Below, one piece after another: positions 3,702 through 32,626 of a DNA stretch of 64,000 nt. Each line of letters starts with the position of its first letter. The stretch's first letter is position 1. Location of the stretch: positions 1-64,000 of the forward strand of contig CADBFX010000012.1 of the NCBI GenBank assembly GCA_902794125.1, written 5' to 3'. The notes under the pieces are model-generated. The model did not search any database. It was not told the DNA's origin and saw only the letters and a program-made list of their open reading frames with translations. A program made the position numbers and the translations under genes. This DNA comes from an uncultured Elusimicrobium sp. Lineage in GTDB: Bacteria; Elusimicrobiota; Elusimicrobia; Elusimicrobiales; Elusimicrobiaceae.

Positions 3702-4631
3702 ATGAAAAAAACGATTTTCTTTTTGGTGGCTTTTTCTTTCTTTGCAGCGGGTTGTTCGGATGAACAACGGGCTCTTATTCAGCAATTTTGGGGGCAAAAA
3801 TTTGGTGCGCAAACGCCCGTTACGCTTCCTCCGATAGAAGAGGAAGAAATTGTGGTGGGCGAAACCGTTCCGGAACAGACCCCGGAAGTCGCCCCGGCCC
3901 CGGCTCCCGCCCCGGCTCCGGCTCCTAAAAAAAGACGGGCTAAAGCGCCGACTTCTTTAGCTATAGAAGTGGAAGATGCAGCGATCCCGGCTTACTTATT
4001 TTTATCGGATACGTGCCCCTGGTGCCGTCGTTTAAAACAACAAAATTTTGCCACTAAATTCAACAATAAACACGGAGCGGACGTTAACTTAATGGAATAC
4101 GAAGTTAATTCCTCTGCCGGTATGCGTGAATATAGCAAAATGATACGGAAACATAAATTGCAAGGTGGGGTGCCGCTATTAATTATCGGTGATACGGTGT
4201 TGCAAGGATATTCCGATGATATGTTGTCCCGGGCGGACCAGGCCGTGCAAAAGGAACTTAAAAAATTAAATCGCACGTCAGGCGGTTCGGCCAAAGCGGC
4301 TAACCAACCGGCTGTACTTAGCATTATGATGGAAGACGAAGATATCAAAACGGCTGCGCCAGAAGCGGATGCCCAACAAATAAAACGTTATTTAACCCGC
4401 GTACAAGAAGATAACGGCGAGATGTTAGATTCCATGGGCCAAATGTTTAGCCCGGCTGTTCGTAACCAAGCGATGTTGATTGCTAATACGTATGAGGAAA
4501 AGTTAAGAGGTTTGGCCGCGAAAAGCAAGTCTTATAAAAATTTTGAACAAGCTGCCAAAAAAATAGAAGCTGAACAACAACAAGAAATAGATCAGCTGGT
4601 GCGCTTGAATATCAAACATATCCGCAAGTAA
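3702..4631 (+). CDS. Lipoprotein with thioredoxin/glutaredoxin-like CPWC domain
   Basis: Predicted envelope lipoprotein of 309 residues. The N-terminus is a lipoprotein signal with lipobox AAGC near residue 18. A linker rich in Pro-Ala follows (about residues 60-80), then a thioredoxin-fold segment with a CPWC redox motif (SDTCPWCRRLK, about residue 105) and the cis-Pro region GGVPLLIIGD expected for glutaredoxin-like proteins. The C-terminal 100 residues are charged, helical and probably coiled coil. SD AAGAGG precedes the ATG and strong terminators flank the gene, so it is probably monocistronic. Likely a thiol-disulfide exchange protein on the periplasmic side, but neither substrate nor direction of electron flow can be read from the sequence. 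No DsbB/DsbD-like partner is adjacent. Confidence 0.75.
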   Translation: MKKTIFFLVAFSFFAAGCSDEQRALIQQFWGQKFGAQTPVTLPPIEEEEIVVGETVPEQTPEVAPAPAPAPAPAPKKRRAKAPTSLAIEVEDAAIPAYLFLSDTCPWCRRLKQQNFATKFNNKHGADVNLMEYEVNSSAGMREYSKMIRKHKLQGGVPLLIIGDTVLQGYSDDMLSRADQAVQKELKKLNRTSGGSAKAANQPAVLSIMMEDEDIKTAAPEADAQQIKRYLTRVQEDNGEMLDSMGQMFSPAVRNQAMLIANTYEEKLRGLAAKSKSYKNFEQAAKKIEAEQQQEIDQLVRLNIKHIRK

Positions 4632-6740: not shown

Positions 6741-8051
6741 ATGAAGGCGCGCGTATACTGGTTGGGGCTAGTGTTGTTGTGCTCCGCGTGTGCGGCGCCT
6801 TCTTTGCGCTATAAAACGGAAGTGAATAAATTGGCGGCCGCTGGGAAATTTAAAGAAGCGGACGCTTTAGTGGTTTCCAAACAAAAAAAGATGTACGCCA
6901 ACCACGATTATGCACTGGTGTATTTAGACCGCGCCGCCTTATTGCACGACGCAGATGACCCGGTTCAAAGCGATCGACTGCTTGATTTAGCCCAACAACG
7001 TATCACGGACTTATATACAAAAAGCGTAACGGCCAGCGTCGGAAAAATATTAATCAATGATTTAACAACCCCTTATTATCCGGCCGCTTACGAACGTGCG
7101 CTAACCTGTTTTTACCGGGCTATGAATTTTTTGCAACGGGGTGACGTTATAGGGGCGGGCGTAGAAGCCCGCCGGGCCGTATTCTTTTTAGACCACTTGC
7201 GCGGCAGTAAAAAAAGCGGCTATAACGACGATCCATTTATTCAATATGTGGCTAGTTTGATTTTTGAATCGCTCGGGCAATTATCGGACGCACGTATTGC
7301 TCGCCAAAATGCGCTTAATGCATATGCCAACTTGGGCGGCAGTTTGAAAGTTTCGGCACCGGAATTCCACGTTCCCGGCAACGCTTCGGAATTTGGCGAA
7401 GTTATTATTTTCCATTATAACGGGCGCATTTCCTTGAAAAAAAACCAAACCACTCAAATAGCTTGGGACCGTGCTTTGACCCTCATTTCTACGGAGAGAG
7501 AATCCCGCTCCGGGATGGACCCGCAAGTAGCCAATGCGTTGGATGCTGGGTTTTTAGGGCATGCAATTACGCTGGCCTACCCGGTTTTGGAACCGCAAAC
7601 ATTTTTAATTGCTTCTTCGGCTGTGCAAGCAAACGGGCAACTATACCACTTACAAAAAGTGGCTGATTTTGCCGCCGCCGCCCGCATGGATTTAGATGAA
7701 AACTTACCCGGCATTTGGTTGCGCACCATTACGCGTGCTATTGCCAAACAAATTGCGGCAGAACAAGCACGCCAAGCTGTTAAATCGGCTACTAAAGACG
7801 ACAGCTGGGGTAATTTAGCGGGACTGGCTCTTAATATTTTTGGAGCTGCCACCGAAAAAGCTGATACCCGCCAATGGTTCACGCTGCCGGCGGAAGTTCA
7901 TATGACGCGAATTTTTGTTGCCCCGGGGCAACAGGATATCCGGTTACTCTTGCGTGACGGATATGGTAATATAGTAGGAGAGAAGGTTTTTGAGCAGGTG
8001 CAGGTAAAAAAAGGCGGGCGGGTATTTTTACATTTCCGCACAGCCTATTAA
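6741..8051 (+). CDS. COG3014-type lipoprotein with helical repeats
   Basis: Lipoprotein of 436 residues; signal peptide with lipobox CSAC near residue 18. The N-terminal half is helical and TPR-like: a KFKEADALV segment, a LDRAALLHDADD segment and a FYRAMNFLQRGD segment that includes an EARRAVFF helix. The C-terminal half is beta-rich, with GEVIIFHYNGR and the tail RDGYGNIVGEKVF. This matches the COG3014 family by eye, whose members are often encoded beside LpoB-like genes; its molecular role is not established. It starts 10 nt after the lpoB-like stop with SD AAGGAA and ends 10 nt before the next gene. An accessory role in cell-wall synthesis or outer-membrane lipoprotein assembly is inference from context only. 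Confidence 0.68.
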   Translation: MKARVYWLGLVLLCSACAAPSLRYKTEVNKLAAAGKFKEADALVVSKQKKMYANHDYALVYLDRAALLHDADDPVQSDRLLDLAQQRITDLYTKSVTASVGKILINDLTTPYYPAAYERALTCFYRAMNFLQRGDVIGAGVEARRAVFFLDHLRGSKKSGYNDDPFIQYVASLIFESLGQLSDARIARQNALNAYANLGGSLKVSAPEFHVPGNASEFGEVIIFHYNGRISLKKNQTTQIAWDRALTLISTERESRSGMDPQVANALDAGFLGHAITLAYPVLEPQTFLIASSAVQANGQLYHLQKVADFAAAARMDLDENLPGIWLRTITRAIAKQIAAEQARQAVKSATKDDSWGNLAGLALNIFGAATEKADTRQWFTLPAEVHMTRIFVAPGQQDIRLLLRDGYGNIVGEKVFEQVQVKKGGRVFLHFRTAY

Positions 8052-17549: not shown

Positions 17550-18629
17550 ATGTATAAAATAATGTCTATCGTGCTAAGTTTTTTGCTGGTTTCGGAACCC
17601 ATATTTGCAGAAACAATGCAAGGTCGTCCTTCTGCACAGCGTAGAGGATTTGCTAGTCGTATTGAACAAAATATTTCCAAGCAGGTTCCTCTTAAAAGTT
17701 CCGCACAGAATAAATGCACTTATCTGGATATGTTGGCCCGCTTAGAGCAAGATACTATTACATGGTCTTGTGTGGAAAATGCCGTGTTGTATTTAGAAAA
17801 ACTAGACGATCCGGCACAAAAATTTTCTCAACAAAAACTCACTCTAACCCAGTCAGATAAATTAAGAAAAAAAATCATTTCTTGGAACAAAGAACCAGTG
17901 ATTGTAGATATTATTAGCTACTATCTAGGGATATTAGGCTGGGATTCTAATACCATTAACCCCTATACGGGCAGGCATTTGGATGAAGATACCTGTAGAA
18001 AGGACTCTTGGCAGGTACTCATAAAAAACGAGAAAATAAGGCCCGGGTGTTTTTATGGGGCACTTGTTTATTATGAAACCCATCCGAATGAATTTGATAC
18101 AACAGTTCGGGATTTGGCGTTGCAAGGTAAACAACGGGCACAAGCATATGTGGCAACCCTTAGTAACGAAAAGAAAGAAAAATATAAGTGGGCATTATAT
18201 TTTCAAGAAATTTTATACAACCGTTTAGATAAGCTAATACAGAATTCTTTTTCACAAGGAGCCGCAGGAAATGATACTTCTTGGGGAAATTCCCGAGAAA
18301 TGGTGGAATTGCGGCAATTATTAGCGAACTGGCCCCGGCAAGACGTAACACAAGAAATTCATGAAAACAAAATAAATCCCGAAGTAAAAGCTCGGTTAGA
18401 GAAGTTGGTGCGTGCCTATGAAAACGGGGTGGATTTAACGACCTTTATTGAAATTTTGGCTAAAGGGAATGATTCCTTGGATAGTCCTAGTTACGTATCT
18501 CCTGTTTTGTTAACATATAGCTTTATGTTGTGGGCTAAATCAAATGCTGTGCGCCCACAGGATAAGAAGAAAGTATTGAATTATGTGTCTGGAGATTATC
18601 CTTTTCGTGTAAAATGGAGCGGCTACTGA
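17550..18629 (+). CDS. Unrecognised secreted protein, helical (first ORF of a possibly split gene)
   Basis: Unknown protein of 359 residues with a cleavable signal peptide (about 1-22, SEPIFAE). SD GGGAGAA upstream. The body is mostly helical with several Cys and Trp; no known domain recognised. The final helical segments (ELRQLLANWPRQDV through KKVLNYVSG) run straight into similar helical sequence in the +1 frame after its TGA, where a second ORF begins at 18631. The two may be one interrupted gene or a coupled pair. It is bounded upstream by two terminators, and codon use looks a little more AT-rich than its neighbours. A signal peptide is present here but absent in the second ORF. Confidence 0.5.
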   Translation: MYKIMSIVLSFLLVSEPIFAETMQGRPSAQRRGFASRIEQNISKQVPLKSSAQNKCTYLDMLARLEQDTITWSCVENAVLYLEKLDDPAQKFSQQKLTLTQSDKLRKKIISWNKEPVIVDIISYYLGILGWDSNTINPYTGRHLDEDTCRKDSWQVLIKNEKIRPGCFYGALVYYETHPNEFDTTVRDLALQGKQRAQAYVATLSNEKKEKYKWALYFQEILYNRLDKLIQNSFSQGAAGNDTSWGNSREMVELRQLLANWPRQDVTQEIHENKINPEVKARLEKLVRAYENGVDLTTFIEILAKGNDSLDSPSYVSPVLLTYSFMLWAKSNAVRPQDKKKVLNYVSGDYPFRVKWSGY

Positions 18630-18630
18630 G

Positions 18631-19866
18631 TTGGCCGGGGGAAAATTCAATTTTACCGAAGCAGAAAAGCAATTGTTGCTTTCTGTATTTGCGCAGATTA
18701 ATAAAAACTTACCGGAAGAGAATAAAAATAATCAAGTTATGTATCGGATGTTGCTGCACCTAACGGGCAAACTGTATTCTTCTCCGGAAGATGCCTTGGC
18801 TTCTGCGACTTCTGCAATTAATTCAGCACATATCCCTCCAGCAGTAGTAGTCGTATGCGCTCCTGGGGCTAGGCAAGCTGGCATGTATTATGCTCTTCCT
18901 GTAATTGCGGGCATAGGGGTATATCTCTGGATTGTAAAAAGTCTTGAAAATGCCACGCATGATTATCTGAGCAGTGAATATAGTGGGGCTTTAGCAGAGA
19001 GCTTGAGTGCGGGGGGCAGTGCATATGCTGTGGAACCTGTGTTAGATTCCCTTAGTGCGGATGGGGAAAATTGGATTATTAGGGAATATGTTACTGCTGG
19101 GCAAAGTATTTTTGACGTAAGCATTGTTTTGGAAACCCCAGCCTTAAGAGAGTATCTAATTACATTGAATGCTTCTGCGGGTTCTGTTGCAATTTCTGGC
19201 GTACGAGAAGCTTCTTTGACGAGGGTTTTGAACGAGGGGTGCCCGGACCCTGGTGGGGGCAGATATTTTGGAAATACAGATAATTATATTGTCCGTTTTG
19301 AAGACTTGTTTAACAATGGAGATCTTGTTACAAAGAAAGCTTTTGCAAAATTGTGTAAAAATAATCAAATTAAAAAATGGTTAAAAGAATATTCTAGGAA
19401 CGGGAAACTTCAGCCAGAATTTTGGAAAAAACTAGCAGCTAGTGATTTTGAAGAATGGCAACAATTGTCAAAAATTGCTAAATCTCGTCCTTTTTCGGAG
19501 TCTTTCGTGCGTGCGATTTATGTGGAGGGGAAAGGGTGGAGACCAGAGGTGGTAAAAGCCGTAAAAGTGACGGGAACAAGATTAGTAGGTATTGTAGATA
19601 GACAATGGTTGAAATCTTTTGTAACCTGCACTTCGGATCACGTTGCTAAATTCGTAGAGAACCCACATATGGATTTGGGGAACGGAAAATTTTACCGATA
19701 TGGGGCTCATGAAAAGAGCAATGGACATTTTCATTATGAAAGTTGGGAAAAAGATCGAAACGGGGAAGAATATCTGTGCAATCAAGAAGTTTATTTTGGG
19801 AAAGGAAAAGATGTAAATGGTCAAAAGTATATAGACCTGTTTTTAGCAGGGATTTCTTGCTTGTAA
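18631..19866 (+). CDS. Unrecognised protein, second ORF of a possibly split gene
   Basis: Unknown; 411 residues if started at TTG 18631, which lies 1 nt after the stop of the upstream ORF. GGAG sits 11 nt before the TTG, so coupled re-initiation is possible. The frame is blocked upstream by TAA at 18610-18612, so any frameshift joining the ORFs must fall in the last 15 nt before the TGA. A hydrophobic stretch (about residues 85-105, YYALPVIAGIGVYLWIV) is followed by a long soluble part. The C-terminal 80 residues contain a His/aromatic-rich patch (GAHEKSNGHFHYESW) and look like a distinct domain. No known family recognised; a toxin-like tail is only a guess. ATG alternatives exist near residues 40-43. 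Confidence 0.4.
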   Translation: MAGGKFNFTEAEKQLLLSVFAQINKNLPEENKNNQVMYRMLLHLTGKLYSSPEDALASATSAINSAHIPPAVVVVCAPGARQAGMYYALPVIAGIGVYLWIVKSLENATHDYLSSEYSGALAESLSAGGSAYAVEPVLDSLSADGENWIIREYVTAGQSIFDVSIVLETPALREYLITLNASAGSVAISGVREASLTRVLNEGCPDPGGGRYFGNTDNYIVRFEDLFNNGDLVTKKAFAKLCKNNQIKKWLKEYSRNGKLQPEFWKKLAASDFEEWQQLSKIAKSRPFSESFVRAIYVEGKGWRPEVVKAVKVTGTRLVGIVDRQWLKSFVTCTSDHVAKFVENPHMDLGNGKFYRYGAHEKSNGHFHYESWEKDRNGEEYLCNQEVYFGKGKDVNGQKYIDLFLAGISCL

Positions 19867-24231: not shown

Positions 24232-25323
24232 CTATAACTTCAACCATTTAAATTCAAAGAATACTACCGCTCCGAATAATATCACCGGGCCCCAACCGGC
24301 CAGGAACGGATTAAGATATCCGTTTTCGCCAAGCGAGGTGCACATGGACATGAGCCACCAAAAGGTAAACGCGATTACCATGGAAGCTAAAATGTTAATA
24401 ATTTTGCTTTTGCGGCGCGTGCTAATGGCAAACGGCATACCAAGTAAACACATAATAACTGTTACAAACGGAGTGGCTAATTTTGATTGTCGCATCGTTT
24501 CGGCCGAGTAAGAAGCAATACCGGTGCGCTTATGAAAACGAATCCGCTTGGTCAGATCCCGCACGCTCATTAATTTCTCATACACGCGTCCGATAGACAT
24601 TTGATCCGGCCGAATTTCTACCGGAGAAATTTCTTCTTCAAAGGGCTCTTCTTGCATATCTACCAGGTTTGTAAACGTACGGCGAAAGCCGTTTTTAAAT
24701 ATCCATTTTTGTTGGGCTTTATCCCACACCATTTGTTCAGCTACAATTTGGGAAGCAATGTTCCACTCGTCATCATAAGTATCAAACGATACTTTGGTCA
24801 TGGTGCCAGTGGTTAAGTCAACCGATTTGGCATATAACATTTGGCGGGAAGATAGTTTAATCAGAACATCTTGTTCCAAGTATTGATTGTAATTGGGGCG
24901 CGGTTTCATGCGCGTGTAATAGATATAATTGGCTTTTACGTTCAATGGCGGAACGATAAATTCCTGCATTAGTAGCGTAAGCCCGGCTACTAATAAAATG
25001 CATGCAATAATCGGTTTAAAAAGTTGTTTGGGGGAAAAGCCACCCGCCACACAGGCCGTCCACTCGCCGTTGGAAACCATTTCCGAAATAACCGAAATAG
25101 CCCCTAGCAAACAAGCCACCGGCATAATCGTGGCCAACCAATTGGGAAATGTAACCAACGAATACGATAAAATATCCCATAGTGTCGTGGTGCCGTTGCC
25201 CAGATTTTTCATTTTTTCAAACGTATCCCCTAACACTACTAACGCGGCAAACACGCCCATGGCAAACAGAAAAGGTCCCCAGAATTTTTTAGAAATATAC
25301 GAAGAAATAAGACGGGTTTTCAT
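24232..25323 (-). CDS. lptG: LPS export permease LptG-like (YjgQ family)
   Basis: Transmembrane half of the LptB2FG transporter that extracts lipopolysaccharide from the inner membrane. 363 residues from ATG 25323, which overlaps the lptF stop (TAATG), so translation is coupled; the longer open frame starts inside lptF. Architecture: N-terminal helices starting in SYISKKFWGPFLFAMGVF, a periplasmic beta-jellyroll (about 130-260) and three C-terminal helices. Typical LptG segments: LPVACLLGAISVISEM-like helix and the C-terminal MCLLGMPFAISTRR. The matching ATPase LptB and LptC are not in the window. Confidence 0.85.
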   Translation of the reverse strand: MKTRLISSYISKKFWGPFLFAMGVFAALVVLGDTFEKMKNLGNGTTTLWDILSYSLVTFPNWLATIMPVACLLGAISVISEMVSNGEWTACVAGGFSPKQLFKPIIACILLVAGLTLLMQEFIVPPLNVKANYIYYTRMKPRPNYNQYLEQDVLIKLSSRQMLYAKSVDLTTGTMTKVSFDTYDDEWNIASQIVAEQMVWDKAQQKWIFKNGFRRTFTNLVDMQEEPFEEEISPVEIRPDQMSIGRVYEKLMSVRDLTKRIRFHKRTGIASYSAETMRQSKLATPFVTVIMCLLGMPFAISTRRKSKIINILASMVIAFTFWWLMSMCTSLGENGYLNPFLAGWGPVILFGAVVFFEFKWLKL

Positions 25324-26417
25324 TAAATGTTTAACCTCTTTTTCCACAGCCAGTAGCCCACCGCGGTTCCCACAAACACAGGTAACCACGGCCCGGGGTA
25401 AGAAATCCAGGCATATTTTTTACCGAGCGAAAGGCCCAAGGTCATCAGTAAATAAAACGAAAAGATAATAATTACGCTAAACAACATGCCCCATCCTTTG
25501 TTGGTGCGTTTTCCCAAAGAAAAACCGATCGGGCAACTGACAAAAAGTAAAATAAGCGGCGACAGTGCCAGCACGTTTCGCATGCTAATCCCGGTGCGGA
25601 ATTCGTTGGCGGTTTTTTCATCCAACGGATCGTTGCGCAGGCGGCGTAAAAGTTTAGTGGTGGTCATTTCGCCAATACGTAATTTGCGGGTATGCTCTTT
25701 AATAAGGGAAATGTTCATGGTGTAGTCATCAAAGTTAGCCGCAATAATGGAAGAAGCATCTTTATCAGACACGCGTTGCATTTGCCCGTCTTTGAGTTGT
25801 AAGCCGATGGCCGTGTCGCTTAAAATAATTTTGCCGGAGGAAGCGTTTACTTTGGTGCTTAAAGCCCCGGCATCATTTTTGCGAATTAAGTGGATTAATT
25901 GCGCGGTATTGGTTTTGTCGTCCAAGTTTTCCAGGTACAAATCCCAATCGCCCAAATCAATAAATGTTTTCGGCTCCAAGGTAACTTTTGTAATTTTGCT
26001 ATAGGCTTCTTCGCGCCGGTTGATAAATTTTTTATAACTGCGCGGTGTCAGCCAGTTACCCATAATAACCAGAATAATGGAAAGAACGATGGCGCACGCT
26101 AAAAGCGGGCGGACAATTTCCTTAAATGAAAACCCGGCCGCACGCAGGGCGATTAATTCGCCTTGTTCGCTCATGTTAGTTAGCGTGAGTAATACCGCGA
26201 TTTGAAAGGCCATGGGAGCACTTAAACAGAATACGTCCGGCAAAATGTTTAGTAGCGAAGAAATAATCCACCCCAACCCCGTGCCGTAGGTCATGGCCAT
26301 ATCCAGCACTTTGATGAAGTGGTTCATAAAAATTACAAACGTCAATACGCCGACGACACCGGCAAAAAACGTTAGTAAACTTTTAGCTATGTAGCGGGTG
26401 AAGATACTTACACGCAT
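25323..26417 (-). CDS. lptF: LPS export permease LptF-like (YjgP family)
   Basis: Partner permease of LptG in LPS transport, 364 residues. N-terminal helices (SIFTRYIAKSLLTFFAGVVGVL), a coupling-helix region MSEQGELIALRAAGFSFKEIVRP that contacts the ATPase, a periplasmic beta-jellyroll (about 130-250) and three C-terminal helices with FVSCPIGFSLGKR. The GELIALRAAG segment is the family hallmark. No Shine-Dalgarno; an extended -10 (TGTTAGAAT) ends 7 nt before the ATG, giving at most a 1-nt leader. Divergent from the SprA-like gene across 108 bp, and both concern the outer membrane, so coordinated control is possible. Confidence 0.87.
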   Translation of the reverse strand: MRVSIFTRYIAKSLLTFFAGVVGVLTFVIFMNHFIKVLDMAMTYGTGLGWIISSLLNILPDVFCLSAPMAFQIAVLLTLTNMSEQGELIALRAAGFSFKEIVRPLLACAIVLSIILVIMGNWLTPRSYKKFINRREEAYSKITKVTLEPKTFIDLGDWDLYLENLDDKTNTAQLIHLIRKNDAGALSTKVNASSGKIILSDTAIGLQLKDGQMQRVSDKDASSIIAANFDDYTMNISLIKEHTRKLRIGEMTTTKLLRRLRNDPLDEKTANEFRTGISMRNVLALSPLILLFVSCPIGFSLGKRTNKGWGMLFSVIIIFSFYLLMTLGLSLGKKYAWISYPGPWLPVFVGTAVGYWLWKKRLNI

Positions 26418-26505: not shown

Positions 26506-26529
26506 ATGAGGTATTTTTCCTTCTTATGA
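26506..26529 (+). CDS. Predicted 7-residue leader ORF (MRYFSFL)
   Basis: ATG at the predicted +1 opens a frame encoding MRYFSFL. Its TGA overlaps the ATG of the 1792-residue gene (ATGA, 26526-26529), in a different frame. The big gene has no well-placed Shine-Dalgarno of its own (only GAGG 14 nt upstream), so initiation by coupled re-initiation after this leader is plausible. Too short for compositional evidence; support comes only from promoter spacing and the exact overlap. Confidence 0.35.
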   Translation: MRYFSFL

Positions 26530-29500
26530 AAATACTGCGGCTGTTTGTTGCCCTGGCAATACTGCTGCAATTTGTTTCGGCTCCTGTGTTAGGTGCCGAA
26601 ACGTTGCCGTATAGTTTGGTAGACAAAAGCCAATACGCTATCTTTGAAGAAGAACAAGCCGCTCAAAAAGAAGCCGAACTTGCCCTGGAAGACCCACCGG
26701 ATGATGCTGAACTGTTAAGATATACGAATGAATTTTGGCGCCAGGCCGTTACGTCGGTAGAAGGGGCCTATAAGTTAGATAAAGAGCCGGAGCCTATTCC
26801 GGACTTGACCCTTTTAAACCCCACGCTTTCTTTACCGCTTTACGGTACCAGCGTCGCTTTGACAGGCCGCTATGTGCTGGGTTTTAAGATGGCTTCCAAA
26901 AAATACAAAAAAGATAAAAATAATGATATTACTTCGCGCAACCAACACAGCACCGAAATGAAACAAGAACTGCAACTGAAAATGCAGGGTAAAATTGTGG
27001 ACCGTGTGTTTGTGGATATTGATTATGATGATCAGCGCGAAGAAGAAAAGACACTCTCCGTGGCGTACCGCGGTAAACCCGGCGAACTGGTACAGTTGGC
27101 AGAGTTCGGGGATATTGATTTATCGCTTCCGAAAACGGAATTTATTGCCTACGAAAAACAGCTCTTCGGGGCAAAAATGCATTTGCAACACAAAAATGCC
27201 AATTTGTATTTAATCGGTTCACAAACAAAAGGTTCCAGTAAACAAAAGAAATTCGTGGGTAGCAGCGTGTCGGAAATTGTTTCGCTGGCGGATACTTCTT
27301 ATATACGGCGTACGTATTACGATTTGACGTTTGGCGGCAATATTAAAGGCGGTTCGGTGGATCCCAGTGCCTATACGCAATGGTATAACAATATGGGAAA
27401 CATCTCGGTGGGGAGCGAAGAAATTTACCTTTATTCCAACAAAGTGTCTTCGGATTATGTACCGGTTACCAAAACCGCTACCGATTATCTAGGCACTCGC
27501 GAATATACCGCCCAATGGCAATTACTTACTCGCGGGGTAGATTACACCATCGATTACGCGCGCGGTATGATTACATTTAAAAAATCTATCACGGCAGCCA
27601 GTGTGCTGGCGGTAGATTACCGCAACTCTACCGGAACTCAATTAAGTTCCACCGGGCAAACGCCTAATACGATTAAACTAATTAAGACGGAAAACGATAA
27701 ACCCTGGGAAGTAGCCCCCTATACGGATACGGAAACGGCCGATAAAATGGAAATCAAACGTTTCTACAATATCGGGGCACAGAAAATCACACAGGATAAC
27801 GGCAAAGGCAATTTCATCTTGCGGCTTTTAGACGCCAACGGTCAGGAAGTCGGCGAAAGTGCTTCTCCTCGCCAGGTCTATCCGTCAACGATTACGATGG
27901 ATTTTGACCAAGGTATTTTTGAACTTGACAGCCGCATGACTGATGACCGCGGATTATATAACGTAACCCCGGTTTCTTCGCGTAACCGCACTTTTAAAAT
28001 TCAGTACGAAAGCACCGTTAAGACGTATTTTATTGAGTCTAACATCGTTTTACAATCAGAAACCGTTAAATTAAACGGCCGCCAATTAACCCGCAATAAC
28101 GATTACTATATTGATTATACTTCCGGTTTTATTACGTTCTACAAAGGCGATCAAATTACCGAAAACTCCGTCATTGATATTACGTACGATACCGTTACCG
28201 GGTCTAGTTCTAATAACTCGGTGATGGGCGGCCGATTAGATTATAAACTGTTTGATAAAATCGTCTTGGGTGCTACCATGCTCAAAGAAGGCGGCGATAA
28301 ACCCAACACCGTGCCGCAAGTGGGGGCCTACAACAAGGAACTGTTGGTGTACGGGGCGGATATCAATGGGCGTGACATTAAAGTAGCGGATAACGTATCG
28401 TTAGATTTCGGCGCGGAAGTAGCCAAGAGTAAAAAAGACCAAAACATGTTTGGCTACGCGATGGTTGACAGCATGAATGATACGCACGAACAAGTAGCCG
28501 TATCGCGCGTATTTAGAGATTGGGTTGTTGCCTCCAACCCCAACAATAAACCGAACTTTTTAGATGCTATCCATTGGGATACACAAGATGTCAATGCATT
28601 AGAAATTAACCCGCATTCTATTGCCAATTACAACGATAAACAACAAGTCTTGGTAATTGATTACGATTTTAGCCGCAGTACCGGCCCGTATGCGGACCGC
28701 GATGAAGTCTCTATCGTCTATCCGATTAGCCACAGCGGGGTGGATTTGTCCGAAAAGACATCGTTTGAACTCACTATGCTCGGCGAAACGAATGGCCCGG
28801 AGATTAACGTAACATTTGGTAATATTAGCGAAGATTCGGATAATAGCGGCGGCATGACGACCCAGTGCGGCGCAGGTGTGCCGAAAACGGAAGATATTTA
28901 TTGCCGCAACAGTTTGGCTCCCAACGAAGATATCGGCTGGCTTTATACCAACCCGGACGGAAGCGAACAACGCTACAACCCGTTTGTGCATAACGTGTTT
29001 AACCCCGAATCGCAACCTAACGGTCGTATTGATACGCAAGACTTAAACGGTAACGGAAAATTTGATGTGGAAGATATCCCGGCGCAAGGGAATTTCGGGT
29101 TTAACGGGGCGACTATTCCCACCGCCGCCGGGCAGCAAGCTCCGGGGCAAGATCCGGCTTGGCAAACGTACACCGCACCGCTGTTGATCCCGTCGGCAGA
29201 TAAACCCCGTTGGACGGCTGTCCGCCATGTGCGTATTACGCTCAAAAAAGGTACGAATACCAAAGAAAAAGGGCAGATTAAAATTGCCAATGTGTCTTTA
29301 TCGGGTACCGCTTGGAACGTAAAAGACAATACTGATCCCAGCCAATTTGCTGTGGCAGGTATCAACAACGTGGATAACGCCTCTTACGAACCTATCTTTG
29401 CCGACCGCCGCGGGGACGGGCAACGCGTGTTTAATTATTTGTATGGTTCTATTGAAAATTATAAAAGCACCATAGATTCTGCTAACGCTTTAGATCAGTC

Positions 29501-31904
29501 ACTTAACATTACATTTGATACCACTCCGTCTTCCGTTTTGGAAGTGGATGATAGTTTGGGCGAGCTGCAACCCGCGGGTGAATTATTTGCCAACCGTAAC
29601 TTTCAAAGTATGGATTTTTCGCAGCACAAAGAATTTCGTTTCTTGTTGCATAGCACGCCCGGCAACGTGGGAACGGAATTTTTTATGAAAGTGGGGACGG
29701 AAACCAATTACGATAAAATCGTTGTTCCGCTGGGGAGCGACTTTGATGGCTGGCGACTGATTTCGTTAAAAATGGTGGACACGAACGGAGACGGCGTTAC
29801 CGATGCATTTGTAGATGCCTCCGACCCTTCCTACAACGTAAAAGTATATAACCGCCGGACGGGAAACGGAACCTTAAACTTCCGCGAAGTCAGTTTAATT
29901 TTAACCGGGGTACAAAAGCCGGTGGGCAGCGCGGGGAGCGTTGGTTCGGTGTGGCTTAACGTAATTCACTTGGCTGAATCTATCACGTCGGAAGGCGAAG
30001 CATACAAAGCGGATGTGGCGTTGAAATGGGAAGGTTGGGGAAGTGCCGGCGCCAAGTACAAGCACAAAGACAGCAATTTTGAAACCCCGTTAGTTGTATC
30101 TAAACAACAAGAAACAACGGAAGAAGAATACTTTGTTAAAGTGGACCGCATTAAAGAATTCCCCATGCAAGCTACCTTGGCCCGCAGCAGTACTACGACT
30201 CCGTTGGTAACCGATAGCCGGGAATATAACACTGTTAGTTTATTAGATAAAGGCAAAGTAGAGCGGCAAAATGCCGTTGTACGTGGTGATTTTATTAAAG
30301 AGAATATGCCGCGCATCGGTTTAGAATATACGATGGAACAAGTAGATTACGATTTAATGCGCCGCAAAGATGATGCCCAAACATACGGGGCCACGTTATC
30401 ACATTCTACGGGTGCATTTAAAAATATTTCTGCCGGATATTACGTAACCAATTCTTCGGTAGAGTATGATAAAATTCGTCACTTGGAATCCAGCACCTAC
30501 TACGATACGGATGAAAATAGACAGAAAATGAATATGAAATTTACGTACCAACCGAGTAATTCATTTCATATTACACCGTCTTACAGTTATAGCAAGAGTA
30601 AAGAGGACCGTACTCATTTCGCCATTGGCGGGCAGGATAATTTGCACTATCCCAAAGCCATGACGCAAAACACAGGTTTTAACTCCACGTGGAAAATTAC
30701 CAACTGGTTGGCACCGTCAGCCAGTTACCAAATTAATACGGTGGAAAATAATAACTTAACGGCCAAAACTATTACGGCTTCGGGTGTTTCAACAAATGTG
30801 GGAGTGGGGCAAGTCAAAACGGTGAACCGTAATGCCGATGGGGGCGTGTCACTTACGCTTAACGGAAATGAAATTTTACCCAAAAGTAAATTGTTCAATA
30901 CGTTGATTATTTCGTCGGGTTACCGCATTCAGGACGCGGACTCCTGGGCAGATGTAGACAGCGGGTTTGACTCGCGCAAAGAATTGTGGATTCGCCATTC
31001 GTTTAAGGATGTGGGCAGCTATGGTTACCGCAAAAGTATGACGTTGCGTGATACATTTACTTCTACCCAACGTTGGAGTCCGTTAGCCAAATACGAACTT
31101 ACCGGCGCGGCTGCTCCGTTACAAACTATTTCCATTATTAATAACTTTAGTAAAACTTTCCAAACGAACGAACAAACAGGTACCGCATACGATTCCACCA
31201 GCATAACATTGCCGGATTTAACTTTCTCCATTTCGGATTTGGAAAAATTCTTGTATGCGGGGCGTTGGCTAAGTGCATCTAATTTAAAATTACGTTACAG
31301 TTGGGTGGAGCAAAAGAACATCGGCACCGATGAACAATATACCACGCAATACGGGGGCGATTTACGCTTTATGTTGTTTAACTACTTTGATACGGTGCTG
31401 AACTATACTCACAAAGAGGCGGACAAAACCGATTTGCGTGCCCGCACCAGTTTGGAACGGGTGAAAGATAATAATCTTTCCGCGCAGACTTCCTTCTACG
31501 TCGGCGCCATGCGTATCACGCCTAAAATTATGCACAACTCGTTTGATAAATGGCTCGTGCATGGGAAGATCAGCGAGAGCTACACGGAAACGATTCCCAG
31601 CTTAAATTTACGGTGGGACTTCAACCTCCCGCATGGAATCAAACTGCCGTTTATTAACCGCATTTACACGGCCACTAACCGCGTGATTTGGAATACTACA
31701 TTTACTTATAAAGATAAACGCTCCGAAGTGGAAGTAAAAGATAACTACAAAATGTTTGATGCTACCACGTCGTTAGATTATGAAATGTCGCGCAATTTAC
31801 GTTTTACGCTTTCCGGCGGATTTACGATTTTAAACCACGCTTACGTAGAAACGGAAGATTATACTGCCTACAATGTAGCCGCTAACGTGACGGTGCAATT
31901 CTAA
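26526..31904 (+). CDS. Giant outer-membrane beta-barrel protein, SprA/Sov-like
   Basis: 1792 residues; signal peptide MKILRLFVALAILLQFVSAP...LGA, then an almost wholly beta-rich protein ending in a phenylalanine (VTVQF), as outer-membrane barrels do. Segments resembling SprA/Sov, the type IX translocon: AEFGDIDLSLP followed by QLFGAKMHLQ (about 190-220), repeated LTRGVDYTIDYARGMITF / LTRNNDYYIDYTSGFITFY modules (about 338 and 520), a region where IKIANVSLSGTAW recalls SprA strand patterns, and a C-terminal half of alternating amphipathic strands. An EF-hand/dockerin-like acidic loop lies near 828-850 (GRIDTQDLNGNGKFDVED). Four Cys near 785-800. Shorter than typical SprA (about 2400). comF overlaps its stop (TAATG). 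No other T9SS gene is in the window; assignment is by eye. Confidence 0.65.
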   Translation: MKILRLFVALAILLQFVSAPVLGAETLPYSLVDKSQYAIFEEEQAAQKEAELALEDPPDDAELLRYTNEFWRQAVTSVEGAYKLDKEPEPIPDLTLLNPTLSLPLYGTSVALTGRYVLGFKMASKKYKKDKNNDITSRNQHSTEMKQELQLKMQGKIVDRVFVDIDYDDQREEEKTLSVAYRGKPGELVQLAEFGDIDLSLPKTEFIAYEKQLFGAKMHLQHKNANLYLIGSQTKGSSKQKKFVGSSVSEIVSLADTSYIRRTYYDLTFGGNIKGGSVDPSAYTQWYNNMGNISVGSEEIYLYSNKVSSDYVPVTKTATDYLGTREYTAQWQLLTRGVDYTIDYARGMITFKKSITAASVLAVDYRNSTGTQLSSTGQTPNTIKLIKTENDKPWEVAPYTDTETADKMEIKRFYNIGAQKITQDNGKGNFILRLLDANGQEVGESASPRQVYPSTITMDFDQGIFELDSRMTDDRGLYNVTPVSSRNRTFKIQYESTVKTYFIESNIVLQSETVKLNGRQLTRNNDYYIDYTSGFITFYKGDQITENSVIDITYDTVTGSSSNNSVMGGRLDYKLFDKIVLGATMLKEGGDKPNTVPQVGAYNKELLVYGADINGRDIKVADNVSLDFGAEVAKSKKDQNMFGYAMVDSMNDTHEQVAVSRVFRDWVVASNPNNKPNFLDAIHWDTQDVNALEINPHSIANYNDKQQVLVIDYDFSRSTGPYADRDEVSIVYPISHSGVDLSEKTSFELTMLGETNGPEINVTFGNISEDSDNSGGMTTQCGAGVPKTEDIYCRNSLAPNEDIGWLYTNPDGSEQRYNPFVHNVFNPESQPNGRIDTQDLNGNGKFDVEDIPAQGNFGFNGATIPTAAGQQAPGQDPAWQTYTAPLLIPSADKPRWTAVRHVRITLKKGTNTKEKGQIKIANVSLSGTAWNVKDNTDPSQFAVAGINNVDNASYEPIFADRRGDGQRVFNYLYGSIENYKSTIDSANALDQSLNITFDTTPSSVLEVDDSLGELQPAGELFANRNFQSMDFSQHKEFRFLLHSTPGNVGTEFFMKVGTETNYDKIVVPLGSDFDGWRLISLKMVDTNGDGVTDAFVDASDPSYNVKVYNRRTGNGTLNFREVSLILTGVQKPVGSAGSVGSVWLNVIHLAESITSEGEAYKADVALKWEGWGSAGAKYKHKDSNFETPLVVSKQQETTEEEYFVKVDRIKEFPMQATLARSSTTTPLVTDSREYNTVSLLDKGKVERQNAVVRGDFIKENMPRIGLEYTMEQVDYDLMRRKDDAQTYGATLSHSTGAFKNISAGYYVTNSSVEYDKIRHLESSTYYDTDENRQKMNMKFTYQPSNSFHITPSYSYSKSKEDRTHFAIGGQDNLHYPKAMTQNTGFNSTWKITNWLAPSASYQINTVENNNLTAKTITASGVSTNVGVGQVKTVNRNADGGVSLTLNGNEILPKSKLFNTLIISSGYRIQDADSWADVDSGFDSRKELWIRHSFKDVGSYGYRKSMTLRDTFTSTQRWSPLAKYELTGAAAPLQTISIINNFSKTFQTNEQTGTAYDSTSITLPDLTFSISDLEKFLYAGRWLSASNLKLRYSWVEQKNIGTDEQYTTQYGGDLRFMLFNYFDTVLNYTHKEADKTDLRARTSLERVKDNNLSAQTSFYVGAMRITPKIMHNSFDKWLVHGKISESYTETIPSLNLRWDFNLPHGIKLPFINRIYTATNRVIWNTTFTYKDKRSEVEVKDNYKMFDATTSLDYEMSRNLRFTLSGGFTILNHAYVETEDYTAYNVAANVTVQF

Positions 31905-32626
31905 TGGTGCGAAAAATAATTGCTTATTTGTTGCATGTGCTACTGCCGCGCACTTGCCACGCGTGCGGGTGTGATTTGCCGTGGAATTATAACCAACCTT
32001 TATGCAAGAATTGTATGAAGCAGTTGCAAGTGCCCGGCCCACTAATTTGTCGTCGGTGCGGGGCTGTACTTAAAAGCGGGGGCGCGCATTGTTTTGCTTG
32101 CCGCGGAAGTAAAGCTAAAAAATACAAGTGTCAAACAATTCGTTCGGCGTGGGTATTTAATACACCTTCCCGTGCGCTTGTGCATGCGCTTAAGTACAAT
32201 CAACAAGAATATGTGGCCCCGTTTATGGCCGAGCAAATGATGAAACGGTTTTGTGCATATCCGGAATTATCCGAGGCGGATTTAATTATTCCGGTTCCCT
32301 TGTTTCCACGCCGGAAGCGTGCGCGCGGCTACAATCAAAGCGAGTTATTGGCACGGTATTTTTCTAAGCAAACGGGGATTGATTTGGATGTCGCTTCATT
32401 AGTCCGTGTGCGTAACACGGTTAGTCAAACCACTTTGGGGCGCCGGGGCCGGTTAGAAAACATGGTAGGAGCCTTTTTGTGTAAAAATCCATCTAACATC
32501 AAGGGGAAAACGGTGCTACTGATTGATGATGTGGCCACCACGGGCGCCACTTTGGAAGGTTGTGCAGTTGCATTAAAACAATCCGGTGCCAAAAAAGTGT
32601 TGGCTTATACGTACGCCCGAGAGTAA
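31904..32626 (+). CDS. comF: ComF family phosphoribosyltransferase-like protein
   Basis: 240 residues. N-terminal double zinc ribbon (CHACGCDLPW...CKNC and CRRCGAVL...CFACRG, about 16-65) followed by a type I PRTase domain with PVPLFPRRKRARGYNQSELLARYF and the PRPP-binding loop VLLIDDVATTGATLE (about 204-218). ComF homologues act in DNA uptake during natural transformation, or in recombination-related steps. The start overlaps the stop of the SprA-like gene (TAATG), so it is translationally coupled; a functional link to that gene is not obvious. The convergent gene starts 7 nt downstream with no terminator visible. Confidence 0.9.
   Translation: MVRKIIAYLLHVLLPRTCHACGCDLPWNYNQPLCKNCMKQLQVPGPLICRRCGAVLKSGGAHCFACRGSKAKKYKCQTIRSAWVFNTPSRALVHALKYNQQEYVAPFMAEQMMKRFCAYPELSEADLIIPVPLFPRRKRARGYNQSELLARYFSKQTGIDLDVASLVRVRNTVSQTTLGRRGRLENMVGAFLCKNPSNIKGKTVLLIDDVATTGATLEGCAVALKQSGAKKVLAYTYARE

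Follow-up and report, generated by a model that had tools for sequence, protein, structure and literature searches.

A predicted SprA-type translocon and a proposed type IX secretion-like export pathway in the phylum Elusimicrobiota

The translocon of the type IX secretion system (T9SS) is known as SprA in Flavobacterium johnsoniae and as Sov in Porphyromonas gingivalis. In F. johnsoniae, the C-terminal sorting domain (CTD) of a cargo protein binds loops of PorV within the SprA pore and leaves sideways together with PorV, and release from SprA requires energy from the GldLM motor (PMC10994853). The type-A CTDs of Bacteroidota are all recognised by one PorV, and type-B cargo has a cognate SprF/PorP shuttle encoded downstream (PMC12618676). 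Abby et al. detected T9SS in Bacteroidetes alone (PMC4793230), and a 2024 paper reports possible T9SS in other phyla of the FCB (Fibrobacterota, Chlorobiota and Bacteroidota) group and its absence elsewhere (PMC11285876). The number of predicted extracellular proteins in Elusimicrobiota is among the lowest in a recent survey (PMC11495043). NCBI taxonomy places this phylum outside the FCB group. The subject of this analysis is a gene at positions 26526-31904 of a 64,000-nucleotide stretch of DNA, hereafter the window, from an uncultured Elusimicrobium sp.; by comparative analysis, it very probably encodes the SprA-type translocon of a predicted T9SS-like protein export pathway in Elusimicrobiota.

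The window lies on contig C12 of a metagenome-assembled genome (MAG) of the Elusimicrobiaceae that is 88% complete and comprises 1.43 Mb in 55 contigs. A first-pass annotation of the window alone had proposed a 1792-residue SprA-like protein with repeat modules in a probable elusimicrobial genome, acting either in a divergent T9SS or as a stand-alone large-pore relative. An open reading frame (ORF) of 1792 aa is indeed open over exactly 26526-31904 on the forward strand, and the guess at the source organism was right, as nearly all of the best 80 named relatives are Elusimicrobia or Elusimicrobiota MAGs. The protein starts with a signal-like segment, contains two Cys and ends in Phe, a feature of outer-membrane barrels. 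The repeat modules are confirmed, though only two DYxxDYxxGxIxF motifs are present, near residues 337 and 524; SprA has counterparts of these modules. The gene and its parts are as follows.

26526..31904, forward strand: sprA/sov-like gene for a predicted outer-membrane translocon of 1792 aa (ORF, TIGR04189, profile match to SprA in the PDB, fold matches)
26853..27317, forward strand: N-terminal stretch homologous to SprA (TIGR04189 positions 99-253; aligns with SprA residues about 150-267)
27504..27836, forward strand: SprA-homologous stretch with the DYTIDYARGMITF module (TIGR04189 positions 367-478)
28038..28544, forward strand: SprA-homologous stretch with the DYYIDYTSGFITF module (TIGR04189 positions 602-789; aligns with SprA residues about 700-779)
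29673..31904, forward strand: C-terminal barrel half, residues 1050-1792, with the terminal Phe (model pLDDT 84.5, strand count, SprA as best Foldseek match)

Detection of the homology relies on profiles: the Pfam search of the protein gives zero matches, and a PDB search with the window sequence alone returns chance matches only. TIGR04189, the NCBIfam profile for SprA/Sov that the annotation had suggested as a check, matches the protein over three stretches (E=2.5e-27, 94.6 bits), which is significant though below the curated equivalog cut-off of 200 bits; the protein is therefore a SprA homolog and not a family member by the NCBI cut-off. A profile built from 21 relatives retrieves F. johnsoniae SprA from the PDB (6h3i, 6h3j, 8gl6 and others; E=5.4e-39), with alignments at about profile positions 143-257, 513-592 and 807-1164. 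A match to NF052337, annotated as 'phage tail tube' (E=2.3e-6), is far weaker and is attributed to a coincidence of repeat modules.

The predicted fold leads to the same family. AlphaFold2 modelled the protein in two overlapping parts, residues 90-1180 (predicted local distance difference test, pLDDT, 78.1) and 1050-1792 (pLDDT 84.5), and SprA entries (6h3i, 6h3j, 8gl6, 8gl8) take ranks 1-4 in Foldseek searches of the PDB with both halves. For the N-terminal part, SprA is found at E=8.5e-44 and the next unrelated protein at 9.8e-7; for the C-terminal part, SprA (E=2.6e-10) is followed by TonB-dependent and other outer-membrane barrels at 4.9e-7. The TM-scores are modest (0.35-0.48 by query), as would be expected when the halves of one barrel are folded separately. 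The modelled C-terminal 743 residues contain 27 strands of at least 8 residues, with further long strands in the N-terminal part, and the models make a barrel total of 36 strands plausible. The annotation had named a missing SprA match and an unlike fold as grounds for abandoning its proposal; the profile and both half models match SprA instead, and homology of the window protein to SprA/Sov, the T9SS translocon, is confirmed by sequence and fold.

The gene is widespread in the phylum, with TIGR04189 matches in 292 of 341 Elusimicrobiota genomes and in 180 of the 192 high-quality ones. Counts of sprA absence are upper limits, since several genomes first scored as negative (G064, G172, G194, G009, G232, G291) carry the gene at contig ends. 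The ORF measures 1731-2031 aa across the 20 fully read loci. Among the best 80 named relatives, many of which come from animal guts and the rumen and which include Candidatus Avelusimicrobium, the closest full-length proteins are about 75-77% identical. When 21 members drawn from the whole phylum (28-75% identity to the window protein) are aligned, about 90 columns are invariant, as is the C-terminal Phe. The tree of these 21 proteins mirrors the kinship of the host genomes, and sprA therefore looks vertically inherited. Recent horizontal gain within the phylum was considered as the main story and rejected on the basis of this tree and of the LptF/LptG synteny kept across families; an ancient transfer before the radiation of the phylum is still conceivable.

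Partners of SprA were sought in 30 well-assembled Elusimicrobiota genomes. PorV_fam (NF033709) is present in all 30, with 3 to 50 matches each, and exceeds its curated cut-off in 20; the matches extend over the full length and reach 206.6 bits. TIGR04183, the T9SS type-A sorting domain, occurs in 22 genomes with up to 55 matches each and exceeds its cut-off in 21 genomes; in alignment, the C-termini of the cargo show the type-A pattern of YPNP followed by W..N..G..vasGvY. The two families are encoded in pairs: among the matches listed, a same-strand PorV starts 79-463 bp downstream of the CTD in at least 48 of 150 cases, where 0.26 would be expected, and among the PorV-CTD pairs so listed PorV is upstream in one and on the opposite strand in none. 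It is very improbable that these proteins are look-alikes, namely FadL-type porins and FlgD-type Ig domains that leave the SprA-like pore an orphan. Some CTD proteins do match FlgD_ig (PF13860) as well, some PorV matches are weak, and the PorV of the window's own genome has UPF0164 as a weak alternative, but the numbers of genomes with matches over the cut-off (21 for CTD, 20 for PorV), the strict cargo-then-PorV order far above chance and the type-A motifs all argue for true relatives.

The PorV proteins and T9SS C-terminal signals that the annotation had proposed to look for elsewhere are thus found in the window's own genome and across the phylum. Their presence leads to rejection of the stand-alone pore and, with the SprA sequence and fold, supports the divergent T9SS. 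The system is best read as a divergent, vertically inherited type of T9SS in which PorV paralogs are dedicated to single cargos. PorV and CTD are strongly expanded in some distant members of the phylum, as in G334 with 50 PorV and 55 CTD matches and also in G325 and G327. One cargo (G087:C4, L099:4067-7549) combines an FTP/PepSY propeptide, a weak match to M4 thermolysin-like proteases and a C-terminal FlgD_ig/CTD-like domain, is followed by PorV and, from its domains, is likely a secreted protease.

The window's own genome contains a PorV at G000:C7:139-1116 (87.6 bits, E=1.2e-24; cut-off 90). Before it, G000:C7:1-111 encodes the final 37 aa of a CTD cargo, which share 89% identity with a complete relative; an N-terminal part of this cargo lies at the end of contig C30, so the pair is split across contig ends. 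Genome G025, from the window's own genus, shows the same order: a 1605-aa cargo (TIGR04183 22.7 bits, cut-off 23) is directly upstream of PorV (89.4 bits). The main cargo-PorV pair of the window's family adjoins a Tad/Flp pilus operon with TadE, RcpC/CpaB, a secretin, a T2SSE ATPase and two T2SSF (G000:C7:1-20000, G025:C2:507000-526999, G078:C1:1300000-1318000). The giant cargo near this operon has 1397-1605 aa and FlgD-like Ig domains, and it might be a pilus-linked adhesin.

LptF/LptG genes, noted beside sprA in the annotation, are present with PF03739 matches at E of about 1e-68, and no other T9SS component is evident among the window ORFs scanned, again as annotated, since the T9SS genes are dispersed, as in Bacteroidota. 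The neighbouring features are as follows.

24232..25389, reverse strand: second LptF/LptG-family permease, conserved divergent neighbour (PF03739, E=8.7e-69)
25323..26417, reverse strand: LptF/LptG-family permease, conserved divergent neighbour (PF03739, E=2.4e-68)
31904..32626, forward strand: ComF-like protein with a phosphoribosyltransferase domain (PF00156, PF18912), whose start shares one base with the stop of sprA

Of 64 named loci, 56 have LptF/LptG divergently upstream of sprA. The ComF-like gene, probably unrelated to sprA in function, immediately follows sprA in 64 of 71 loci; the only other conserved neighbours seen are glycolytic genes in some families. The conservation of ComF suggests that sprA lies in a housekeeping neighbourhood and not in a T9SS operon. 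In Bacteroidota, some T9SS cargo is attached to lipopolysaccharide (LPS), and a tie of sprA to LPS export is possible. A rival reading, in which SprA mainly serves an LptF/LptG-linked job as a large channel or as a biogenesis factor for outer-membrane proteins or LPS and the PorV-CTD pairs work independently of it, is unlikely. The divergent permeases in 56 of 64 loci and three genomes with PorV in which sprA was not found favour it, whereas the specific match of fold and sequence to a secretion translocon and the strong co-occurrence of SprA with PorV and CTD cargo do not; the arrangement could equally be a housekeeping relic, ComF being as conserved as LptF/LptG. Elsewhere in the window, four predicted proteins of 309-436 aa on the forward strand (3702-4631, 6741-8051, 17550-18629, 18631-19866) have no Pfam match at 1e-5.

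Loss of the gene can be followed in genus g74, whose reduced genomes appear Endomicrobiia-like by position. A profile of the phylum alignment, more sensitive than TIGR04189, detects sprA remnants in this genus that are decaying and interrupted by stop codons; they offer a snapshot of the loss of the system.

G286:C25:27816-30546: sprA pseudogene
G268:C13:21569-25127: sprA pseudogene
G289:C1:953509-954112: sprA pseudogene
G271:C10:24257-24799: sprA pseudogene
G262:C11:3183-3557: sprA pseudogene

In g74, PorV occurs in all 15 SprA-positive genomes tested and in 3 of the 26 that lack a SprA match (Fisher p=1.3e-8), a pattern that fits co-loss of SprA and PorV, with general genome reduction and common ancestry as confounders. 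This confounding is one of several points that weigh against the proposed export pathway. The TIGR04189 cut-off is not reached in any genome of the phylum, and in the window's genus the genome search gives no CTD over threshold, the complete relative reaching 22.7 of the required 23 bits. Three genomes (G303, G304, G322) have 2-7 PorV matches each and no sprA found by either the SprA profile or the phylum alignment, possibly owing to an assembly gap or to PorV acting without SprA. In the 30 genomes, the components that energise a T9SS are either absent or too altered to be recognised. Profile searches of these genomes find neither GldM nor GldN, and GldL only once, and no control genome is positive for any of the three. 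The lone GldL match (G309) is spurious, as it falls in a coiled-coil protein built of 'IQKIAKTLEPA' repeats. The PorU C25 sortase (PF01364, Peptidase_C25) is likewise found in 0 of 30 genomes, with no control genome positive. The wider search for Por components thus succeeded for PorV and gave no credible match to GldL, GldM or GldN (PorL, PorM, PorN). Because no control genome gave a match, these results count as non-detections and do not prove absence, and the component searches left out GldK, SprE/PorW, PorE, SprT/PorT and Skp/SkpA.

Two explanations of the undetected motor compete. Elusimicrobiota may export type-A cargo by SprA, PorV and CTD without GldKLMN, many cargos having a private PorV, as an ancestral simpler T9SS or one coupled to another envelope motor; this reading has slightly less than an even chance. 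A full canonical T9SS, in which motor and hub have diverged too far for the profiles used and the ordinary system simply extends to another phylum, is possible and somewhat more doubtful. SprA itself is under its curated cut-off in every genome, and fast-evolving GldM, GldN or PorK could therefore be missed; the controls negative for GldM, GldN and C25, and the place of GldK, SprE/PorW, PorE and SprT outside the searches made, point the same way. An equally loose search nevertheless finds SprA and PorV nearly everywhere and GldL/M/N credibly in 0 of 30 genomes. In Bacteroidota, porK-L-M-N are clustered; the only conserved neighbours seen for the elusimicrobial sprA are LptF/LptG, ComF and, in some families, glycolytic genes.

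The analysis shows the homology and fold of SprA, the homology of PorV and CTD, the pairing of their genes and vertical conservation throughout the phylum; transport, its direction, the specificity of PorV for CTD and the energy source are what we infer for the proposed pathway, by analogy with F. johnsoniae (PMC10994853). Large cargo would cross the inner membrane by Sec, and its C-terminal Ig-like domain, the CTD, would enter the SprA barrel from the periplasm. There the CTD would bind the loops of a barrel of the PorV family that sits at the lateral opening of SprA; the conservation of SprA fold, PorV family and CTD makes this F. johnsoniae-like loading step the likeliest. The PorV-cargo complex would exit sideways into the outer leaflet, leaving the cargo at the surface or released, and many cargos would be served by their own PorV paralog, encoded immediately downstream. 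As GldL/M/N, the known rotary motor and hub, went undetected, energy would probably come from another source, such as an ExbBD/TolQR-type motor or cargo folding outside.

The almost universal occurrence of SprA, PorV and CTD in a phylum outside FCB alters the view of T9SS as restricted to Bacteroidota or the FCB group, and Elusimicrobiota, with their few predicted extracellular proteins, gain a candidate route for surface-protein export. If the motor is truly missing, what energises substrate release from SprA becomes testable, and the translocon-shuttle core would be separable from the rotary motor. The tandem cargo-PorV pairs provide natural matched sets for studies of shuttle specificity. 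In the full-text literature searched, with most subscription papers outside its scope, Elusimicrobia and T9SS are co-mentioned only incidentally and no such system is described; an earlier description may nevertheless exist.

Compared with SprA of F. johnsoniae (6h3i, 6h3j, 8gl6, 8gl8) and Sov of P. gingivalis, the elusimicrobial protein shares three homologous stretches and the fold in both half models, and PorV-family proteins and type-A CTD cargo accompany it as they do SprA and Sov. It is shorter than SprA (1731-2031 vs 2403 aa), scores under the curated cut-off and differs in its LptF/LptG and ComF neighbours, its non-FCB phylum and the non-detection of GldL/M/N in the 30 genomes. The elusimicrobial PorV proteins match the type-A shuttle (NF033709/NF033710) over its full length; unlike PorV of Bacteroidota, they occur as numerous paralogs within a genome, often encoded immediately behind a single cargo gene. 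The pairing of one cargo with one downstream shuttle resembles that of type-B CTDs with SprF/PorP in F. johnsoniae, whereas the elusimicrobial cargo is type A-like (TIGR04183) and its shuttle PorV-like.
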